Shown: piece after piece, positions 11,702 through 26,688 of the stretch
How the letters are laid out: every line of letters starts with the position of its first letter
Position numbering within the stretch: the first letter of the stretch is position 1
Source: Planctomycetota bacterium
GTDB taxonomy: Bacteria; Planctomycetota; Phycisphaerae; UBA1845; UTPLA1
DNA: 64,000 nucleotides
NCBI GenBank assembly: GCA_015654675.1
Contig: JAATGM010000059.1
Span: 62,001-126,000, forward strand
Direction of reading: 5' to 3'
The notes under the pieces: generated by a model
Databases searched by the model: none
What the model was told of the DNA's origin: nothing
The model's input: the letters and a program-made list of their open reading frames with translations, nothing else
Made by a program: the position numbers and the translations under genes

Positions 11702-12660
11702 TCTTCACCGCGGCCGCGATCGCCGCGCCCACCCCGGTTCGATCCGAATCCGAACTCCGCAAGGCCGCGGCCATCGCTGCGACCCAGCCCGCCGCCGTCA
11801 TCCTCATCGACGGGCCGATCAAGATTTCGGCGCCGGTCACGCTGGGCGGCGAAACGCTGACACTGCTCGGCGTCGGCGCGAAGGCGGAGCTGCAATTCAC
11901 CAACCCCTTCCGCTGCGACTGGTCGAAGCCGCCGCCCAACAACGGGCTCGACTGCACCGCGAACACGCTGTTCATCGAAAACATCCGATTCAGCAATTAC
12001 GACTGGTGGGGCAGCACGATCAAATGGAACGCCGACCCGGCGGCTTCGAAGCTGCTCTTCATCGACCATTGCAGATTCACGGAATGCGGATCCCATTGGT
12101 GCCCCGGAAAAGTCACGCCATCGGCAACCTCGGACGACGCCCACGCCTCAAACGTCATCGGCGCTCATGAGCATTTGAACGCCACCATCGTCGTCACCGA
12201 TTGCACGTTTACGCGCTGCGCCAACGCCCAACAGGTTTACGGCCACTGCATCTATGCCGCCGCGAGGCGTCTCGCATTCACCAACAACACCTTCAACGCC
12301 TGCGGCAATCCGTTCCAAACCGGCTACTCGAATCGAACGTGGCAGTCTGACCAGCTCGTGACCGGCAACACCATCACGGCCGGCCCACCCGCGAAAGACA
12401 ATTCCGACAAGGTCCGCCCCCCCTACTTCTTCGTCGTCGGCGCGCACTCGAACAATGTCGTCGTCCGCAACACCCTCAAGGGCGAGTGGCAACTGCCCTA
12501 CACGGGCTACCCGTCGCTCAACCTTCAGCTCATCGGCTTCAACGACTGGACCGGCGCGAAGCTGACCGAGCCGTTCGCCGTTGATCTCTGGAATGCGAAA
12601 TACGTCAGCGGCGCGGACTGGCGCGGGCAATACGAGACCGGGAGCGTGTGGCCGCAATGA
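11680..12660 (+). CDS. Secreted right-handed beta-helix protein (pectate-lyase-like fold)
   Basis: A 326-residue protein with a signal peptide (MRYVISLIFTAAAIAAPTPV). The body has repeated rungs typical of parallel beta-helices: L-F-I-E-N-I-R-F-S, L-L-F-I-D-H-C-R-F-T, I-V-V-T-D-C-T-F-T, L-A-F-T-N-N-T-F-N and V-V-V-R-N-T. The fold occurs in pectate lyases, tailspikes and other polysaccharide-acting proteins. No catalytic triad can be assigned by eye. The ATG at 11680 has AAGGA upstream, so much longer in-frame starts are rejected. The 3' end overlaps the next gene by four bases (ATGA), which suggests co-translation. Confidence 0.7.
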   Translation: MRYVISLIFTAAAIAAPTPVRSESELRKAAAIAATQPAAVILIDGPIKISAPVTLGGETLTLLGVGAKAELQFTNPFRCDWSKPPPNNGLDCTANTLFIENIRFSNYDWWGSTIKWNADPAASKLLFIDHCRFTECGSHWCPGKVTPSATSDDAHASNVIGAHEHLNATIVVTDCTFTRCANAQQVYGHCIYAAARRLAFTNNTFNACGNPFQTGYSNRTWQSDQLVTGNTITAGPPAKDNSDKVRPPYFFVVGAHSNNVVVRNTLKGEWQLPYTGYPSLNLQLIGFNDWTGAKLTEPFAVDLWNAKYVSGADWRGQYETGSVWPQ

Positions 12661-14258
12661 CACTTTTCCAATCCGTCGGAACGCCGATCGACGTCTCTGA
12701 GGGGCGCTGCAATTCTCAGAACAATGAGAACTGCATCATGGCAATGCCGGATGCGGAGACTCTCGCGATCGGATACTCGCCTGGATTGGAAGCGGCGTCG
12801 GCGACCTTCAAGGTACGACTACTCGACGTCAACGCCCTCACACTCGGCACCCCCATCGATACCGGGCTCGGCACCAGCGACTACCACGCCCAAGGGTCGC
12901 TCTTCGCGGATATGCTCGGCCGGCTGCACGCCATGCAGGGCGGCGGCGCGTGGAAGCACACCAGCGTCGCGGCGCCGACTACATTCGGCAGCCCGGCGGC
13001 ACTGACGGTTCGGTCCGGCGCCGTCCAGCTCGGCGGTGGGTCGATCATCGACGCATCCGGTGTGCTCGACCCCTTCAGCGGCGACCTCTTCTGCACTTTT
13101 CAGCACAACGGCACGTATCGAATGGACGGCTACGGCGTCGCGGCGCCGGGTGTGAGTCTTGCACCGGCCGCGCGCTCGCAGTGGGGCTGCCTCTGGCGGA
13201 TCCCAGCAGGTGCGCAAGTCGGCGGTCCGATCCTTCCAGACGGACCCTACAAACTCATCGACTCGGGCTTCAGCCTTCAGATCAAACGACAGCTCGTGAT
13301 CGGCAAGGAGACCAGCGGGCAGCGATCGTTGCACCTGATGTGGATTCTGCGGTACAGCTTCACGACCCTCCCCAGCGACTTCGCGACGTACAACATCTAC
13401 TACATGAAATCGACTGACGGCGGCACGACGTGGAAGAACGCCGCGGGCGACATCTCGCTTCCGAAGACGGGCAACGGCATCTCGATTCTCGCGTACCCGT
13501 ATCCCGGCACGTCTGGCTCGCCGACCGACGGAAACAGCAGCTTCCAGGACACGCTGCAGGACTCGCTCGGCGTCGCCATCCCGCCCCACCCGATCGCGGC
13601 CGGCGACTGGCGCAACTTCGACGCGTTTCGAGTCTTCGCGGGCAACGTCGGACAGGGCTGCGAGGGCGCGTTTGATTTGGACGAAGACGGCTACCCCATG
13701 GTCGTCTTCGCTGAGTACGTCTCGGGCGGAAACACCGCGACAGCCGTCGCCGAGCGCGCGGCCGGAGGATTACCCTACGACCCGCCGGCCACGATGGTCG
13801 GCATCTTCGCGTCGACGGCGGTCTATCGACTTTCGCACCGGCGATGGAACGGATCGGCGTGGATCGGCGGCGTCATCGATGACAGCCGCAATTATCTCAA
13901 CGCGATCCCAAAGCTTCGAATCGACGCGAATGGCCGCGCGATCATCTTCATGTCCATCCCCGCCGCATCGCTCGGGCTGCGGGTGTTCACGCTCGATCGC
14001 GACGAGGAAACGTGGGAAGGCCCGACGGCCATCGTCGAGAGCGCCGAGGCCGAAGACGCGCGGTTGATCTGGTCGCTGCGGGATCCGTTCAACGCCGATC
14101 GACACTGGATTGCATTCAACACCGGCAATGACGATCGCTGGCTGCTGCCGCTCCAGCTCACGGCGTCCGTCGCTGAGGTCAACGTCGCCAACCGCATCAT
14201 CGCTGGCCGGCCCCCAGCGAGCATTCGTCACCTGATGCCGCGGGGCGTGCATTTCTGA
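12657..14258 (+). CDS. BNR/sialidase-like beta-propeller protein
   Basis: A 533-residue protein. Residues about 225-285 carry an Asp-box motif (S-T-D-G-G-T-T-W) typical of BNR repeats. The rest has propeller-like segments (GSIIDASGVLDPFSGDLFC, F-D-L-D-E-D-G-Y-P-M-V-V-F-A) seen in BNR_4 family proteins. Such proteins bind or hydrolyse glycans. The Arg triad of true sialidases was not located, so enzymatic function is uncertain. Its neighbours are a beta-helix protein and the ParB-ABC-GNAT fusion. It overlaps the latter by one base (TGATG). Confidence 0.65.
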   Translation: MTLFQSVGTPIDVSEGRCNSQNNENCIMAMPDAETLAIGYSPGLEAASATFKVRLLDVNALTLGTPIDTGLGTSDYHAQGSLFADMLGRLHAMQGGGAWKHTSVAAPTTFGSPAALTVRSGAVQLGGGSIIDASGVLDPFSGDLFCTFQHNGTYRMDGYGVAAPGVSLAPAARSQWGCLWRIPAGAQVGGPILPDGPYKLIDSGFSLQIKRQLVIGKETSGQRSLHLMWILRYSFTTLPSDFATYNIYYMKSTDGGTTWKNAAGDISLPKTGNGISILAYPYPGTSGSPTDGNSSFQDTLQDSLGVAIPPHPIAAGDWRNFDAFRVFAGNVGQGCEGAFDLDEDGYPMVVFAEYVSGGNTATAVAERAAGGLPYDPPATMVGIFASTAVYRLSHRRWNGSAWIGGVIDDSRNYLNAIPKLRIDANGRAIIFMSIPAASLGLRVFTLDRDEETWEGPTAIVESAEAEDARLIWSLRDPFNADRHWIAFNTGNDDRWLLPLQLTASVAEVNVANRIIAGRPPASIRHLMPRGVHF

Positions 14259-16012
14259 TGACCATCGAACGCATCCCCGTCTCGCAGCTCAGCGCCGCCG
14301 CGTACAACCCGCGCAAGGATCTGAAACCCGGCGATGTCGAGTATGAGAAACTCAGGCGGTCGATCGCCGAGTTCGGCTATGTCGAGCCGATTGTCTGGAA
14401 CCGGCGGACGGGCAACGTCGTCGGCGGGCATCAGCGGTTGAAGATCATCACCGCCGGCGGCGCGGCCGAAGTCGATGTCTCCGTCGTGGACCTCGATGAG
14501 CCGCGCGAGAAGGCTCTCAACATTGCCCTCAACAAGATCAGCGGCGAATGGGACGATTCAAAGCTCGCCGACCTCCTGGCCGAATTGCAGCGGGACACGA
14601 CCGTGGATGAGACTCTGAGCGGCTTTGACTACGCGGAAATCGATAAGCAGCTCGACAAGGCCGTGGACGAATCGCCCGCACAATCGGGCCGCGCCGCGGT
14701 GAAGGAGTCGTATTCGCTCCTCGTGACCTGCAACGGCGAGTCCGATCAGGAGCAGCTCTACCGCAAGTTCACCGACGACGGCCGCGACGTCCGCGTGCTG
14801 ACGATGCCGGCGGCGGGCGAAAAACCAACTCGCTCCGACCCGGTCGACGCAACAGCTCTCCCGGCGTCGGCGATCAAAGTCGAAGTCTCATGTCCGGTCG
14901 AAAAGAGTTTCCGGGTCGAGCAGGTCTCGGGCATGTTCGATGTGAAGCTCGAGGCGAAGGCGACCCGATCCTGGTCCGTCGAGCTGCCGGCCCTGGATGG
15001 CGGCTGGAAGATCGGCGCCATCGTCGGCCCCTCCGGCTCCGGCAAGTCGCAGATATCCCGGCAGGTCTTCGGCGACGGCTACGTCACGGGATACGAATGG
15101 CCGGCGGGAAAGGCAATCGTCGATGCGTTTCCCGAGTCGCTGGGAATATCTGATATCACGGCCGCACTCAACGCCGTCGGCTTCAGCTCGCCGCCCGATT
15201 GGGTGAAACCCTATGCCGCACTGAGCGTCGGGCAACAGTTCCGATGCAATCTCGCCCGCGCCATCCTGACGCCGGCGAATGTCGTCGCGTTCGATGAGTT
15301 CACCTCTGTCGTCGATCGGCAGGTGGCGCAGTTCGGATCGGCGGCGGTCGCGAAAGCAATTCGCGCTGGCTCGCCGGCAGCTCGCTTCGTCGCCGTGACC
15401 TGTCACTATGACGTGCTCGCCTGGCTCCAACCGGATTGGGTGCTCGACGCCGGGAGGTTGCTTCGGCGTGGGACGCGGGAGTTTGCTGAGCGCGTCGGTG
15501 ATCGACCACGAATCCCGCTCGAAATCCGCCGCGCACCCCGACGCCTCTGGACCACTTTTGAACACCATCACTATCTAAGTCCGCGACTGCACCGGCAGGC
15601 CCGATGCTTCGCGGCGGTCTGGGACGGCCGGCCAATTGCATTCTGCGCCGTTATTCAAAACATGGGGCACAAGGGCCGGCGGATCATCCACCGGCTGGTC
15701 GTCCTGCCCGACTATCAGGGAGTGGGAGTCGGACTGCGGCTACTGGATGCCGTCGCTGCAATGGAAGCCCGCACACACGAGGTCTCAATCCGAACCAGCC
15801 ACCCCGCCCTTATTCGCTCCCTCGCCAACCGCCCACATTGGCGCTGCATCGCCTTGGATGACAGCGGCACGCCCCACCGGGGAATGTCCAACGCGAAGTC
15901 CCGTCGCGGGTCCATCGGACGTTCTACGGCGAGCTTCGAATATGCGGTCGGTTTGTCTCAGCGCTCGACAGTAGATACATGCAATCGTCCAGGCTTCCAT
16001 CCCCCTGGCTGA
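14258..16012 (+). CDS. ParB-like / ABC ATPase / GNAT fusion, probable phage DNA-modification enzyme
   Basis: A 584-residue protein with three domains. Residues 1-130 are a ParB-like N-terminal domain with the phosphate-binding GGHQR at 56-60, followed by a linker (Y-S-L-L-V-T-C-N-G-E-S) at 152-163 that occurs in phage ParB proteins. Residues about 205-405 are an ABC-type ATPase: Walker A GPSGSGKS at 257-264, signature ALSVGQQFR at 321-329, Walker B NVVAFDEF at 341-348 and an H-loop His at 383. Residues about 434-535 are a GNAT acyltransferase with the acyl-CoA loop VVLPDYQGVGVG at 481-492 and H-H-Y-L before it. That pattern is seen in Mom-type DNA modifiers. The likely role is modification of phage DNA to escape restriction. 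The last 40 residues have no clear fold, and the convergent gene overlaps them. Confidence 0.75.
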   Translation: MTIERIPVSQLSAAAYNPRKDLKPGDVEYEKLRRSIAEFGYVEPIVWNRRTGNVVGGHQRLKIITAGGAAEVDVSVVDLDEPREKALNIALNKISGEWDDSKLADLLAELQRDTTVDETLSGFDYAEIDKQLDKAVDESPAQSGRAAVKESYSLLVTCNGESDQEQLYRKFTDDGRDVRVLTMPAAGEKPTRSDPVDATALPASAIKVEVSCPVEKSFRVEQVSGMFDVKLEAKATRSWSVELPALDGGWKIGAIVGPSGSGKSQISRQVFGDGYVTGYEWPAGKAIVDAFPESLGISDITAALNAVGFSSPPDWVKPYAALSVGQQFRCNLARAILTPANVVAFDEFTSVVDRQVAQFGSAAVAKAIRAGSPAARFVAVTCHYDVLAWLQPDWVLDAGRLLRRGTREFAERVGDRPRIPLEIRRAPRRLWTTFEHHHYLSPRLHRQARCFAAVWDGRPIAFCAVIQNMGHKGRRIIHRLVVLPDYQGVGVGLRLLDAVAAMEARTHEVSIRTSHPALIRSLANRPHWRCIALDDSGTPHRGMSNAKSRRGSIGRSTASFEYAVGLSQRSTVDTCNRPGFHPPG

Positions 16013-16364
16013 ACAAATCAAAAAAGACGCGACACTGATCGGCATTCAGCGGAGCGAGTGTTCCCCGTCGCGCATCAACTTCGCTTCTCAGATTCTTCAT
16101 TCTCGACTTATTCCCGGTTAGTTGGTTGGTCGTATCGAAAATGGATCGCCACTCAGTTGGCAGTGTCTCAACCGCGCGACGACGCTGAACTGCTCGGTAC
16201 CCTTCGGGCAGCGCTGCGCAACCGACCGCGAAGCAAACCACGAGTAATCGCCGGATCACGGCTTTGCCGCGACCAACTCTCTCGTCACGTTTGCCTGGCT
16301 TTCCGCATGTGGGACAGAACTTCTCACGTCCCTGCAATTCGCCGTGGTCAGGACACTTGAGCAT
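15924..16364 (-). CDS. Zinc-ribbon membrane protein, unknown function
   Basis: A 146-residue protein read convergently into the end of the fusion gene, overlapping it by 89 bases. It begins with a zinc ribbon (MLKCPDHGELQGREKFCPTC, ligands C4 and C17-x2-C20 with a nearby His), then a basic stretch and one membrane segment (L-L-V-V-C-F-A-V-G-C-A-A-L). The remaining helical part carries a C-x-V-F-F-D-L-F-like segment. The N-terminal ribbon plus membrane helix is a layout frequent in planctomycetes. The overlap is unusual, but the zinc motif and even codon use support a real gene. Confidence 0.55.
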   Translation of the reverse strand: MLKCPDHGELQGREKFCPTCGKPGKRDERVGRGKAVIRRLLVVCFAVGCAALPEGYRAVQRRRAVETLPTEWRSIFDTTNQLTGNKSRMKNLRSEVDARRGTLAPLNADQCRVFFDLFSQGDGSLDDCMYLLSSAETNRPHIRSSP

Positions 16365-16605: not shown

Positions 16606-17427
16606 ATGAACGCGAACGAAATCACCTTCGGAATTGAGATTGAGACGACGATCCCCGCCGGGACGATGGAAGTCGGAAACCGACACGGAAACACGCAGGC
16701 CATGGGCCTCCCCTTCGGTTGGGCCGCGACATCGGACGGATCGATCCGCACGCGAGCGGGCCGCATCGGATGCGAGTTCGTTTCGCCCGTCCTCCGGGGT
16801 GAAGAGGGCATCCGACAGGTCGTCGAGGTCTGCCGCACGCTTAACGCGATGGGTGCGCAGGTCAATTCGTCCTGCGGATTTCACGTCCACTGTGGATTCG
16901 ACCGCAACAATCGCCCCGCCTTGGCCCGCCTGATTACCTTCGTCGCCAATTTCGAGAAGGCGATTTTCGCCAGCACCGGCACGAAGAATCGCGAGCGTGG
17001 CCGGTGGTCAGCCGGAATCGCCGCCTTCGGATCGGTCGAGGCAGCCGAGCGGGCGGGCCGCTATCGCGTCCTGAATCTCACGAATCTCCAGCAAGGCACG
17101 AAGCCGACGGTCGAGTTTCGGGCGTTCGCCGGAACCTTGAACGCGGACAAGATGATCGCCCATATTCAGCAGTGCATTGCGATGGTCCAGCTTTCGCACG
17201 AGGCGAAGCGCACGACGAATTGGACCGCCAAGGCACCGGTCGCCACGTCGCCGATTCATCGCAGCGGCGAAGGCCAGACCGCTCTCACGCGACTGTTCTA
17301 CCGACTCGGTTGGACGAAGGGCCGGACCGCTAAGACCCTCGGCGCGGTCGGCGAGTCGGTCCAGTCGATCCGGAAGTCTAAGAAAACCCTCATGAAGATG
17401 GCCCGGAAGTATGACGCCCAACCGTAG
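16606..17427 (+). CDS. Amidoligase family enzyme (PF12224-like)
   Basis: A 273-residue protein that matches the amidoligase family pattern. It has GIEIET at 9-14 (catalytic acidic pair E11, E13), D-G-S-I at 44-47, E-F-V-S-P at 57-61, CGFHVHCG at 90-97 with H93 and H95, and TVEFRAFAGTLN at 168-179. These enzymes are related to gamma-glutamylcysteine and glutamine synthetases. They use ATP to join an amine or ammonia to a carboxylate. The substrate here is unknown. The gene is followed, after 48 bases, by a 144-residue protein and then by a class II glutamine amidotransferase, which could supply the ammonia. Confidence 0.8.
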   Translation: MNANEITFGIEIETTIPAGTMEVGNRHGNTQAMGLPFGWAATSDGSIRTRAGRIGCEFVSPVLRGEEGIRQVVEVCRTLNAMGAQVNSSCGFHVHCGFDRNNRPALARLITFVANFEKAIFASTGTKNRERGRWSAGIAAFGSVEAAERAGRYRVLNLTNLQQGTKPTVEFRAFAGTLNADKMIAHIQQCIAMVQLSHEAKRTTNWTAKAPVATSPIHRSGEGQTALTRLFYRLGWTKGRTAKTLGAVGESVQSIRKSKKTLMKMARKYDAQP

Positions 17428-17943: not shown

Positions 17944-17958
17944 TTGGAGGAACCAACC

Positions 17959-18672
17959 ATGTGCGGGATTTTTGGTTTTGTAAGTGACGGGGAAGGCGAG
18001 CCGGATATCGATCGGCTTCGCAAGATCGCCGTCGTCACCGAGTCGCGCGGCCCCCACGCCTTCGGATTCGCGTGGATCGATCGACGCGGCCGGCTACGCT
18101 GCTACAAGCAAACGGGGCGAATCTCCGATCACCTCGGACTGCTCGCGATGGCGTCGGACGCGCGAATGCTCATCGGGCATACCCGCTACGCGACGCAGGG
18201 CGACCCCGACGACAATATCAACAACCATCCGCACCCGGTCGACGGGGGCTGGCTGGTACACAACGGCATGATCCCGCGTTACCGCGAGACGATCGACGAT
18301 TGGGGTCTGCGGCCCGTGTCGGATTGCGACTCGGAAACGATCGCCCTTCTGATCGAGCGGATGGATGGCCCGGTGTCCGAGCGGTGCGCGTGCGCGATTC
18401 GAGAGATCGGATCGTACAATGCCGTCGTGCTGGCCCTCTGGTCCCGTCCGAATCGGATGATCGCCATCCGCCGCGGCAACCCGCTGTGCATCGCGACGAC
18501 GACGGCCGGGACGTACCTCGCCAGCTTGCCTAGCGCGATGCCCAAGAGCTGTCGCGAAGTCCCGGATGATTCGGTGATTCAGTTCACACACGACCGAAAA
18601 GGAAAGCTCCATGTCGAAAAAGAAACCATCGAAGATGCCGCGTCCGCCTGGCCGGCCGCTGTTCGGGACTGA
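17959..18672 (+). CDS. Class II glutamine amidotransferase (Ntn-type)
   Basis: A 237-residue protein. ATG at 17959 is chosen because the catalytic Cys2 must become N-terminal (M-C-G-I-F-G-F), and it has a TTGGAGG ribosome site. An in-frame start five codons earlier would bury the Cys. Other family landmarks are GHTRYATQG at 73-81, NNHPHP at 88-93, HNGMI at 101-105 and the S-D-C-D-S-E turn at 121-126. The domain hydrolyses glutamine to release ammonia. Alone it lacks a synthetase domain, so it should act with a partner, and the adjacent amidoligase is the obvious one. The last 62 bases overlap the next gene. Confidence 0.85.
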   Translation: MCGIFGFVSDGEGEPDIDRLRKIAVVTESRGPHAFGFAWIDRRGRLRCYKQTGRISDHLGLLAMASDARMLIGHTRYATQGDPDDNINNHPHPVDGGWLVHNGMIPRYRETIDDWGLRPVSDCDSETIALLIERMDGPVSERCACAIREIGSYNAVVLALWSRPNRMIAIRRGNPLCIATTTAGTYLASLPSAMPKSCREVPDDSVIQFTHDRKGKLHVEKETIEDAASAWPAAVRD

Positions 18673-19027: not shown

Positions 19028-19408
19028 ATGAAGGCCCTCACCGTCTTGAACCCATGGCCGTGGCTGATCGTTCGCGGCATTAAATGCGTCGAGAATCGGC
19101 CCTGGCGGACGCACTATCGGGGCGAGCTGCTCATCCACGCCGGCGTCGGCCGGAGCTGGATGGATCGGGCGTACGAGGATCCGAAAGTTCGGCCGCTCCT
19201 GCCGGATCCCGCCGAGCTGGTGTTCGGTGCGATCGTTGGCAAGGTGACGCTCGTGGACTGCGTGTCGATCGAGAGTTGCCTCGGAGAACCATTCGCGTTC
19301 GGGCCCTGGTGTTGGATTGTGCGGGACGCGGTTGAGTTCAAGAAGCCGATTCCATATCGCGGACGGCAGATGTTGTTCGAAGTGCCGAATAGTCTTATCG
19401 CAGCCTAA
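19028..19408 (+). CDS. ASCH-domain protein
   Basis: A 126-residue single-domain protein. The segments LTVLNPWPWLIVRGIKCVEN, R-P-W-R-T-H-Y-R-G-E-L-L-I-H-A-G and V-F-G-A-I-V-G-K-V-T-L match the ASCH/PUA-like fold that binds RNA or acts on nucleotides. Family members in phages and islands include small nucleases and RNA-binding coactivators. The specific role is unknown. It follows the small zinc ribbon on the opposite strand. Confidence 0.75.
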   Translation: MKALTVLNPWPWLIVRGIKCVENRPWRTHYRGELLIHAGVGRSWMDRAYEDPKVRPLLPDPAELVFGAIVGKVTLVDCVSIESCLGEPFAFGPWCWIVRDAVEFKKPIPYRGRQMLFEVPNSLIAA

Positions 19409-23102: not shown

Positions 23103-23391
23103 CCAATCTCACCGAGACCTGAGTTGAAGATCGGTCGACATGTCCACCCTCGGACGACGGCGGCTACGTGAATGATGTCGTCGCGCGAAACTCATGGCAA
23201 GTCACCCTTGAAATCGCCCTTGCCGGTCGGGTACGATTGGACTGCTCATCATCCCCGGGCTTGGCCACCCCCCCCAGGCTGGGCCCACGATGAGCACGGG
23301 GGCGGCTGTTGAGTGTGCCAGTCGCCTCCACTTTTTTTCCAGCCGCGGGCCGCGGTTGAAACAATCGACTAACTCCTCTAACCTCCGGACC

Positions 23392-26300
23392 ATGCCCCGT
23401 CAGCCGCAAAAAGCACAGCACAAGTCGCTTTTTGTCCCACCTGAAATCGGAGCGCTGGTACACGGATTCTCTCGCCATCTCCGCGAGCTCAGGAAAAAGG
23501 AAACGAAAGAGGCGACGATTCGCCAGAACTACATCGACCCGTTCTGGAAGGCACTGGGTTGGGACGTCGGAGACCAGCAGCAGCTCGGTCCGAGCGAATG
23601 CGAAGTGATCATCGAAAAGAACGTCGAGACCGCCGAGAGCGGCGGACTCCGCAACCGGCGGCCGGATTATCTCTTTCGATTGGGTGGCTTCCCAAGATTC
23701 ATAGTCGAGGCAAAGCGGCCGATCGTGGATATCGACGCGGACAAGGACGCGATTTTCCAAGCCAAGCAGTACGCATGGAACAGCACGATTCCTTTTGCGA
23801 TCCTCACGGACTTCGAGCAATTCCGCCTCTACGACACAACGCTCAAGCCAATATTCGAAGAGCCTCGCCGTGGCTTGGTTAGCGAATACGCCCTCAATTA
23901 CGAAAGTTACGAAGCCCAATGGGACGTCTTAACGTCCATCTTCGGTCACGATGCCGTGGCAGGCGGATCTCTCGAACGCTTGCTGGCCAACATCAAGAAG
24001 ATCCGGCCCGGCAAACGCCTCCGCACCGTTGACCGGATGCTCATCGACCTCAAAGGCGGGGAGCCGGTCGATCAGGAATTCCTCGCCTATCTCGACACCC
24101 ACCGCCGCCACTTTGCCGCCGCGATCTATCGCGACAACAAGCCCGCCTTTCCCGAGGCCGATACTCTCCACGGCGCGGCCAAACTTACCGAGGCCGTGCA
24201 GCGCATCATGGACCGCCTCGTGTTCATGCGGGTTATTGAGGACCGGGGCATCGCTACTTGGGGATCGTTGCGCGAGATGCTCGAACGGATTGGTGGCGAG
24301 GGAGGCGAATTCTACGAGGCCCTGTGCGCAAAATTCCGCGAATACGACTCCAAATACAACGGCTATCTCTATAAACCGCACTTCTCCGAAGAGTTGAGAG
24401 TGGATGGGGCCGTTATTGCCGATTTCACTCGATCGCTTTATCCGCCGGACGGCCCGTGGGACTTCGCCGCCATTGGCGATGACATTCTCGGAATTGTTTA
24501 CGAACGCTTCCTGGGGAACACGATCGAGATCAGGAAGGGCAGGGTCGAGGTTCAACTCAAGCCTGAGTACAAGAAGGCGGCCAAGAAAACACGTCACAAG
24601 ACGGGCGTTTTCTACACGCCACGGTTCGTGGTTGCTTCAATAATCCGGCGAGTAATTGGGCCCAAGGTGGAAGGGAAGACACCTGCCGATGTCTTGGACG
24701 TGAAGATCCTCGATCCGGCTTGCGGTTCGGGTTCATTTCTGGTCGCAGCACTTCAGTACCTCTTCGATTATTGCCTCGCGGCGGTCAACAAAGACTCGGC
24801 CGTCGCCAGAGCAGTCGTTCCAGCGCTAAGCGAGAGTACCGGAGGTAGGGGTCGGAAGAAAAAAGCGGAAATCGCGTTCCAGGACAAAGACGGCCGCTGG
24901 TATCTCGCCCCCGATTTCCGCGCGTCGCTCCTCACCCATTGCATCCACGGCGTTGACATTGATCAGCAGGCCGTAGAGGTCACGGTGATGTCCCTCTACC
25001 TGAAAATGCTGGAGTCGAAGTTGCCCGAAAACTGGGCGACCCTCTGGGTCGAGCGTCAATTGCTTCCATCGTTGGACAACAACATCCAGTGCGGCAACTC
25101 GCTCATCGACGATGACAGCTATTTTAGATTCCGTGAAAAGCTGAATAAGAATCAGCCCACGCTCTACGACACCGAGGACGCGGACACATCTTTCCGAATC
25201 AACCGGTTCGACTGGGCAAGCCATACCCGAGGTTTTGGCCGGCTCCTCGCCCCACTTCCAACCACAGCGAATCCCAAGCCAAAGCCACATGCCTTCGATT
25301 GCATCATCGGCAACCCGCCATACATCCGAGTCCAGGAGCTCAATAAATGGGCCAGCGAGGAGTGCGAGTTCTACAAATGGAAGTATGGCGCAGCGGTGAG
25401 AGGCAACTATGACATCTATGTTGTGTTCGCTGAGCGGGCGCTGAGTCTACTTGCGCCAAAGGGGTTGCTGGGCTTCATCATGCCAAATAAATGGTGGCAT
25501 GCGCAATATGGCGAGGGTCTTAGGAAGATAGTCGCCGACGCCCGGCACCTTCGCAGTTTGGTTGACTTTACGGATCAGCAAGTATTCACGGGTGCGACGA
25601 CCTATACGGCAATTCACATCTTTCAGGAACAGAAAGGCGAGGATGAGATCGACGTCGCGGCCGTTACGGAACTCAAAGACGGCCAGGCCCAGTGCGCCGC
25701 GATCGACCAGCAAGAGACCGTACAGATCCCAGGCGTTGTCCGATTCGTAGCGAGCGCGCCGCGCGGGACCGATCCTTGGTCGTTCCACAGTACGGACGAC
25801 GAGGCCTGGTGCCAACGAGTCTCAGGAAATCATCCACGATTGGTCGACGTCGCTCCCGACATATTCGTCGGCCTCCAGACGAGCGCGGACACCGTGTTCG
25901 TTTTCGAAGAGTTTGAAGAACGAAAGTCGCTTACGCGCGCCACGAGTCTCGAACTCGGCCACCGTGTTGATCTTGAGGCCGACGTTTTACGCCCCGTCAT
26001 CCGCAGCGGCGAGATTGGCCGACATTGGGCCAACTCCACAGCCCGGGTCTTATTCCCGTATCGAGTGGCGGACAGTCGGGCGACGATTATCTCGCCCGAA
26101 AGGATGAAGGCGGATTATCCGCTCGCATGGAAGTATCTAAAAGCCAACGAGAAGATGCTTCGCGGACGAGAATCCGGAAAGTTTGACCATGACGAGTGGT
26201 ACGGCTTGATGCGGAAGAATCTCGAACGATGGGAGTCGCCGAAGGTCATGGTTCCATACATGATAACAGACCTGGGCGCCTGGTTTGACGAGGGCGGAGA

Positions 26301-26688
26301 TCACTATTTCGTAAACGTGACAACTGGCGGCTTCGGAATTCGAACCAGTCGAGTAGACATGCGATATCTGGCCGCACTCTTATCGAGCAGCCTTCTCGAT
26401 CGCTGGTTCAAGTCGCAGGCTGGGCGTTTTCACAGCGGATACTTCGGCGCCAACAAGCAGTACCTTGAGAACATCCCGATCATAGTTCCACAAAACGCCG
26501 ATGATCGGAAGCTCACCGAACGAATCGTCGCTAGCGTTCGCGTAATAATGGACGCCAAGGCGGCCCTCCGCGCCCCAGTGCTCTCCGATCGGGAACGGGA
26601 TCAGCTTACATCCGCGGTTGAAACGCATGAATCGCGGATTAACAAGACGGTCTTTGAGCTCTATGACGTGGACGGACTGCCGGAATGA
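23392..26688 (+). CDS. Type IIG (Eco57I-like) restriction-modification enzyme
   Basis: A 1,098-residue single-chain enzyme. The N-terminal nuclease has a PD-(D/E)xK core, P91-D92 and E106-A-K108 (F-I-V-E-A-K-R-P). The methyltransferase has T-G-V-F-Y-T-P-R before motif I D441-P-A-C-G-S-G-S-F and catalytic N641-P-P-Y in motif IV, typical of adenine-N6 methylation. The last 350 residues are the target-recognition part (F-H-S-G-Y-F-G-A-N-K-Q-Y-L). Such enzymes cut unmodified DNA and methylate their own sites, with no separate methylase. The ATG at 23392 is preferred over an upstream start. The ribosome site is weak. The target sequence is unknown. Confidence 0.9.
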   Translation: MPRQPQKAQHKSLFVPPEIGALVHGFSRHLRELRKKETKEATIRQNYIDPFWKALGWDVGDQQQLGPSECEVIIEKNVETAESGGLRNRRPDYLFRLGGFPRFIVEAKRPIVDIDADKDAIFQAKQYAWNSTIPFAILTDFEQFRLYDTTLKPIFEEPRRGLVSEYALNYESYEAQWDVLTSIFGHDAVAGGSLERLLANIKKIRPGKRLRTVDRMLIDLKGGEPVDQEFLAYLDTHRRHFAAAIYRDNKPAFPEADTLHGAAKLTEAVQRIMDRLVFMRVIEDRGIATWGSLREMLERIGGEGGEFYEALCAKFREYDSKYNGYLYKPHFSEELRVDGAVIADFTRSLYPPDGPWDFAAIGDDILGIVYERFLGNTIEIRKGRVEVQLKPEYKKAAKKTRHKTGVFYTPRFVVASIIRRVIGPKVEGKTPADVLDVKILDPACGSGSFLVAALQYLFDYCLAAVNKDSAVARAVVPALSESTGGRGRKKKAEIAFQDKDGRWYLAPDFRASLLTHCIHGVDIDQQAVEVTVMSLYLKMLESKLPENWATLWVERQLLPSLDNNIQCGNSLIDDDSYFRFREKLNKNQPTLYDTEDADTSFRINRFDWASHTRGFGRLLAPLPTTANPKPKPHAFDCIIGNPPYIRVQELNKWASEECEFYKWKYGAAVRGNYDIYVVFAERALSLLAPKGLLGFIMPNKWWHAQYGEGLRKIVADARHLRSLVDFTDQQVFTGATTYTAIHIFQEQKGEDEIDVAAVTELKDGQAQCAAIDQQETVQIPGVVRFVASAPRGTDPWSFHSTDDEAWCQRVSGNHPRLVDVAPDIFVGLQTSADTVFVFEEFEERKSLTRATSLELGHRVDLEADVLRPVIRSGEIGRHWANSTARVLFPYRVADSRATIISPERMKADYPLAWKYLKANEKMLRGRESGKFDHDEWYGLMRKNLERWESPKVMVPYMITDLGAWFDEGGDHYFVNVTTGGFGIRTSRVDMRYLAALLSSSLLDRWFKSQAGRFHSGYFGANKQYLENIPIIVPQNADDRKLTERIVASVRVIMDAKAALRAPVLSDRERDQLTSAVETHESRINKTVFELYDVDGLPE

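Follow-up and report, generated by a model that had tools for sequence, protein, structure and literature searches.

A ParB-ABC ATPase-GNAT fusion gene in the late region of a planctomycete prophage, probably encoding a DNA base-modifying enzyme

The fusion gene and its prophage setting

The window analysed here is a stretch of 64,000 nucleotides (contig JAATGM010000059.1, positions 62,001 to 126,000) from the 4.9 Mb bacterial genome of a member of the Planctomycetota (GCA_015654675.1). It contains a single gene that encodes a ParB domain, an ABC ATPase domain and a GNAT-fold domain, in that order (Table 1). On the same strand, the contig upstream of the window carries the genes for a terminase large subunit, a portal, a head maturation protease and a tape-measure protein, and tail-type genes continue from there up to the fusion ORF. 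The stop codon of the preceding gene and the start codon of the fusion gene overlap as TGATG. The fusion gene is therefore the last in a run of prophage late genes, and its assignment to a phage late operon, made originally from the sequence of the window, holds.

Several other genes of the window lie close by. Downstream are genes of the amidoligase, class II glutamine amidotransferase and ASCH types (16606-17427, 17944-18672 and 19028-19408) and, at a distance of 7 kb, a large Eco57I-type restriction-modification enzyme with an HSDR_N nuclease domain (23290-26688). On the minus strand, a possible zinc-ribbon ORF of 146 aa (15924-16364) shares about 90 bases with the 3' end of the fusion gene. 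Three viral contigs (L053, L194 and L195) also have ASCH and amidoligase genes next to ABC-GNAT, with the amidotransferase as well in L195, which suggests an accessory gene set common to the phage group.

Table 1. Features of the fusion gene and of the gene before it (positions in the window)
Feature	Position	Strand	Basis or remark
Preceding gene of the same operon, 536 aa, probably tail-associated	12648..14258	+	weak PHROG match only
Three-domain gene, ParB-ABC ATPase-GNAT	14258..16012	+	584 aa, ATG start, uninterrupted ORF
ParB/Srx N-terminal domain, residues 1-140	14258..14677	+	phrog_620 3.7e-44; 59% identity to same-genome ParB-DNA methyltransferase
GGHQR box of ParB domain, residues 56-60	14423-14437	+
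Apparent C-terminal end of ancestral ParB gene, residues 151-183 (YSLLVTCN...VRVLTM)	14708..14806	+	comparison with split relatives
Linker, residues 184-205	14807..14872	+	apparent former stop and intergenic stretch, now read through; ABC start codon lost; low pLDDT
ABC ATPase domain, residues 206-408	14873..15481	+	Pfam, motifs, structure match
Walker A GPSGSGKS, residues 257-264	15026-15049	+
ABC signature LSVGQQ, residues 322-327	15221-15238	+
Walker B NVVAFDEF, residues 341-348	15281-15301	+
H-switch CHYD, residues 382-385	15401-15412	+
GNAT-fold domain, residues 411-566	15488..15955	+	Pfam, motifs, Foldseek
HHYL motif of GNAT domain, residues 437-440	15566-15577	+
Acyl-CoA loop QGVGVG of GNAT domain	15716-15733	+

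Domains and motifs of the fusion protein

The original prediction placed all three domains on one chain, and Pfam, PHROGs, AlphaFold2 and Foldseek confirm it. In Pfam, the protein matches Acetyltransf_1 (9.4e-9) and ABC_tran (5.2e-7), and ParB_N at 2.6e-4, below the gathering score. PHROG 11143 spans residues 207-566 (1e-94) and the PHROG ParB families span residues 1-164 (4e-44). These matches to known families are strong and are not motifs that arise by chance. The AlphaFold2 model has three confidently predicted domains, in blocks mostly of 83-98 pLDDT, with a disordered linker at about residues 139-201; the GNAT domain modelled alone reaches pLDDT 89. In Foldseek searches the central part of the protein finds ABC ATPases, and residues 412-570 find dozens of GNAT structures (best E 1.3e-7), so that the region earlier read as a GNAT from its motif does show that fold.

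The GGHQR box, the Walker A and B motifs and the acyl-CoA loop (residues 481-492, VVLPDYQGVGVG) all lie at the residues where they had been predicted. Further motifs, absent from the original prediction, are the ABC signature, the H-switch and HHYL. Since the signature and the H-switch are also present, the ABC ATPase is complete. The ATPase and acyl-CoA motifs are invariant or nearly so across relatives, and HHYL, which lies ahead of the second GNAT strand, is near-invariant (H438 97%, Y439 100%).

Other roles for such a protein were considered. An ABC transporter or another form of energy-driven transport was rejected, there being no transmembrane ABC domain in the protein and no permease family among the scanned neighbours. 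A defence-system role was rejected as well, as the only PADLOC hits are a weak ABC match and one to a type II methyltransferase, limited to its ParB part. Nor does the protein resemble a ParABS partition protein, in which a helix-turn-helix and a dimerisation domain follow the ParB N-terminal domain: Pfam finds no helix-turn-helix family in the fusion protein, and the ParB N-terminal domain stands alone.

A new arrangement within a known family

Phage proteins composed of an ABC ATPase and a GNAT domain were predicted in 2013 to carry out acyl modification of bases (Iyer, 2013, as cited in PMC7824862). The exemplar QAX98348.1 of Aeromonas phage AsFcp_2 is homologous to residues 199-562 of the fusion protein (E 9e-46); the family and its predicted function are therefore already known. 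Like the other members (PHROG 11143), the fusion protein has intact Walker A, signature, Walker B and H-switch motifs followed by a GNAT domain, whereas ParB in the family is a separate upstream gene or absent. A literature search found no biochemical assay of any ABC ATPase-GNAT family member. Phage records hold 264 matches to the fusion protein. ABC-GNAT is one gene in Gordonia, Pasteurella, Pseudoalteromonas, Arthrobacter, Leptospira, Vibrio and Aeromonas phages, and the two domains are separate genes in Streptococcus, Oenococcus and Lactococcus phages.

The position of ParB was compared in 123 distinct ABC(-GNAT) loci, duplicates having been removed. ParB is immediately upstream (within 150 nt) in 97 of them, within 600 nt in 6 and absent in 19. 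It is on the same chain in one locus, that of the window. Just upstream of the other long ORFs in the same loci, ParB is found in 1 case out of 613, and the pairing of ParB with ABC-GNAT is thus far from chance. The pair is often directly upstream of terminase genes; in the Mu-like Komp_PAO1_1 it lies just behind the tail-fibre genes, a position comparable to that of mom in Mu. The three-domain chain is a new arrangement within a known, uncharacterised family. It had been suggested that similar fusions might already be described: ABC-GNAT fusions beside a ParB gene are indeed common, but the three-domain chain was seen nowhere else in our searches. G511 (L262), Paraburkholderia pBPHY01 (L260), L008 and others at first appeared to be three-domain fusions and were rejected: their genes are separate and often lie in one frame interrupted by the ParB stop.

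How the fusion may have arisen is suggested by the split relatives compared, where the ParB protein closes with a conserved stretch that ends in LTL, LTF or LIL before the stop codon. In the window, the end of ParB runs VLTM and then through 22 stop-free codons into the ABC domain, whose own start codon is gone. The fusion thus looks like the result of loss of the ParB stop codon. The same appearance might come from an assembly error, the stop codon between two ordinary genes being missing from the sequence. This is the sole fusion among the 123 loci, and six relatives (L008, L183, L184, L195, L257 and L260) have the two genes in one frame, split by the ParB stop, both of which favour an error. 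However, the ABC start codon is lost too and the 22-codon linker has no stop; because one base error would not yield both changes, we consider an assembly error highly improbable.

Relatives are also found outside typical phage genomes. Nine species of one genus of the same phylum keep ParB and ABC-GNAT (L147-L155, L165, L171-L173); the four of these loci looked at (L165, L171-L173) share neighbouring genes in an apparent chromosomal prophage remnant, and the pair may be domesticated in this genus. A host role is possible for several chromosomal ABC-GNAT loci in genomes of the phylum. Three loci (L158, L159 and L160) hold a more distant ParB and ABC pair, and the ABC gene of L159 ends in a GNAT-like stretch, missed by Pfam, with a recognisable HY motif. 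A 110-kb Klebsiella plasmid that carries terminase and portal genes and is probably a phage-plasmid (L261:2635-6073) has, upstream of the terminase, two ParBs together with an ABC ATPase and a GNAT-like protein that is divergent (1.9e-5). Similar DNA occurs, always on plasmids, in 243 of 5426 complete E. coli genomes.

Partners of the ParB domain

The ParB domain of the window shares about 50-67% identity with many ParBs from other phages, and 59% with that of a ParB-DNA methyltransferase encoded in the same genome (L004). Its identity to most ParBs beside ABC-GNAT genes is just 15-25% or so over the aligned length. Judged by these identities, it is closer to the ParBs attached to methyltransferases than to the usual ABC-GNAT partner. 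ParB-DNA methyltransferase fusions (phrog_498) have a similar N-terminal domain, joined to a methyltransferase where the window protein has ABC-GNAT.

Partners were surveyed for 102 ParBs whose identity to the window domain is 45% or more, with partner types checked by Pfam. A DNA methyltransferase is fused or adjoining in 77 of them: N6/N4 enzymes are fused in 57 and adjoining in 3, and C5 enzymes adjoin in 17. Mom adjoins 8 and a radical SAM protein 7. ABC-GNAT-type genes accompany 3, including the window, and the remaining 7 have none of the surveyed partner types; the counts are not independent events, because the sample is rich in Paenibacillus phages. The radical SAM genes lie directly downstream of phage ParB genes (L109:5704-7011, L111, L041, L113:8590-9792), in the place held elsewhere by a DNA methyltransferase or Mom. 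Their product is possibly an undescribed DNA-modifying enzyme.

Exchange with Mom

Mom is the DNA adenine modifier of phage Mu. In two phage pairs, Mom (PF25680) and ABC-GNAT occupy the same genome slot. The Porphyromonas phages 012a and 006a are 90.5% and 84.7% identical in nucleotide sequence over about 8.7 kb upstream of the slot (tail genes), and their last 87 bp are 82.8% identical; between these conserved flanks lies Mom in one phage and ABC-GNAT plus a formyltransferase in the other. EastWest and StevieBAY, both Arthrobacter phages, have flanks in common and orthologous ParB genes (52.6% identity), and the slot after ParB is filled by ABC-GNAT in EastWest and by a Mom homologue in StevieBAY. 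Both Mom and ABC-GNAT sometimes adjoin ParB.

The two proteins resemble each other in having a GNAT fold, and perhaps in a His-Tyr motif at the end of the first GNAT helix, ahead of the second strand. They differ in that Mom has neither the QxxGxG loop nor an ATPase, both of which are present in the window protein. PF25680 gave no match to the window protein at E<=1 and matched 1 of 77 relatives (0.011). Comparison of the GNAT with Mom profiles by hhalign was non-significant (P 0.05-0.57), and homology beyond the GNAT fold was dropped for that reason. HHYL seems to correspond to HYS of Mom when the two are compared by eye, as it also does in an alignment that falls short of significance; a catalytic role of this His-Tyr in Mom is a lead only. 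The description of the GNAT as Mom-type in the original prediction thus suits the place it takes in the genome, but by HMM it is not of the Mom family.

Proposed function and alternatives

We propose that this late prophage gene probably encodes a DNA base-modifying ABC-ATPase-GNAT enzyme, fused to its ParB partner, whose mark would shield DNA from restriction. DNA is favoured as the target because of the exchange with the Mom cassette, the ParB partners and the placement in the genome. The invariant catalytic motifs of both enzymatic domains, the invariant HY motif and the published prediction also speak for base modification. Against DNA modification are the GNAT domain, which shows no detectable homology to Mom beyond the fold and whose nearest solved folds are generic GNATs, the 19 of 123 loci without ParB next door, and the chromosomal loci of the phylum for which a host role is possible. 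The original prediction, an energy-driven enzyme acylating or amidating a base against host restriction, is partly upheld. Its architecture and its idea of a modifier that uses ATP to acylate DNA bases are well supported by context and agree with the published prediction; what we infer is the base, the acyl group, how energy is coupled and an effect against restriction.

The enzyme could instead acylate a protein, such as host RNA polymerase, a restriction enzyme or a virion protein, with ParB only tethering it to DNA-bound targets. The nearest GNAT folds include the protein N-acetyltransferase RimI and N-terminal acetyltransferases, and a phage GNAT, Rac, modifies host RNA polymerase according to PMC7824862. 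A protein target is nevertheless unlikely in view of the slot exchange with Mom, of the ParB type common to DNA methyltransferases and Mom, and of the presence of a ParB partner directly upstream in most loci.

Another candidate target is tRNA, which would be acetylated as by TmcA (ATPase plus GNAT, N4-acetylcytidine) and thereby guarded from host nucleases. Among the structures that best match the full model, TmcA (2zpa; E 1.3e-6) is the sole ATPase-GNAT whose ATPase is not of the ABC type, and the GNAT domain by itself matches it as well (1.4e-5). There are also weak PF13718 and NAT10 matches, those to PF13718 (GNAT_acetyltr_2) being in 5 of 77 relatives. TmcA and NAT10, as RNA cytidine acetyltransferases, have an ATPase and a GNAT on one chain, as does the window protein, but they act on RNA, have no ParB and belong to another ATPase class. 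The ATPase of TmcA is not an ABC ATPase. In the window protein, Pfam finds neither a helicase-type ATPase nor PF13718, no RNA-binding domain was found, and the context of ParB and Mom indicates DNA. A tRNA target is thus very unlikely. The match of the full model to TmcA does make cytosine N4 a serious candidate beside adenine N6 for the base that would be modified in DNA.

A DNA-modifying mechanism might run as follows. The ParB domain would bring the protein to DNA or allow it to move there. ATP would bring the ABC domains together as a pair, which would open, distort or clamp the duplex where a base is flipped out. The GNAT domain could then move the acyl moiety of acyl-CoA onto an exocyclic amine of that base (adenine N6 or cytosine N4), and the invariant His-Tyr would face the acceptor. 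The mark, made late and just before packaging, would shield progeny DNA from host restriction, and the single chain would hold the parts in fixed ratio.

Formyltransferase genes adjoin one ABC-GNAT branch (L138:23523-24140, L177:10580-11053, L169, L123, L164, L157), and their product might formylate the transferred group. ASCH genes lie near several ABC-GNAT copies, including that of the window, and the ASCH protein YqfB hydrolyses N4-acylcytosines (PMC6972931). A bolder and rather doubtful extension is that ABC-GNAT proteins form a new class of ATP-driven DNA base acylases, most interestingly makers of N4-acyl-cytosine that would do in DNA what TmcA does in tRNA. ParB would then be a loading module that can be swapped among methyltransferases, Mom, radical SAM proteins and ABC-GNAT, and ASCH proteins and formyltransferases would tailor or remove the mark.

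Significance

Many base modifications of phage DNA still lack identification, and the ABC-GNAT family has been a predicted source of them since 2013. The base-modification reading is plausible and in outline already published; here it is better supported by context. Of the results, the exchange with Mom and the partner survey are of most use, since they open the function to direct testing. Natural exchange provides matched phage pairs for a direct comparison of chemistry, and the fused chain provides ParB, ATPase and acyltransferase in one expressible protein. More generally, the partner survey suggests that orphan phage ParB domains are loading modules for DNA-modifying enzymes and not partition proteins.
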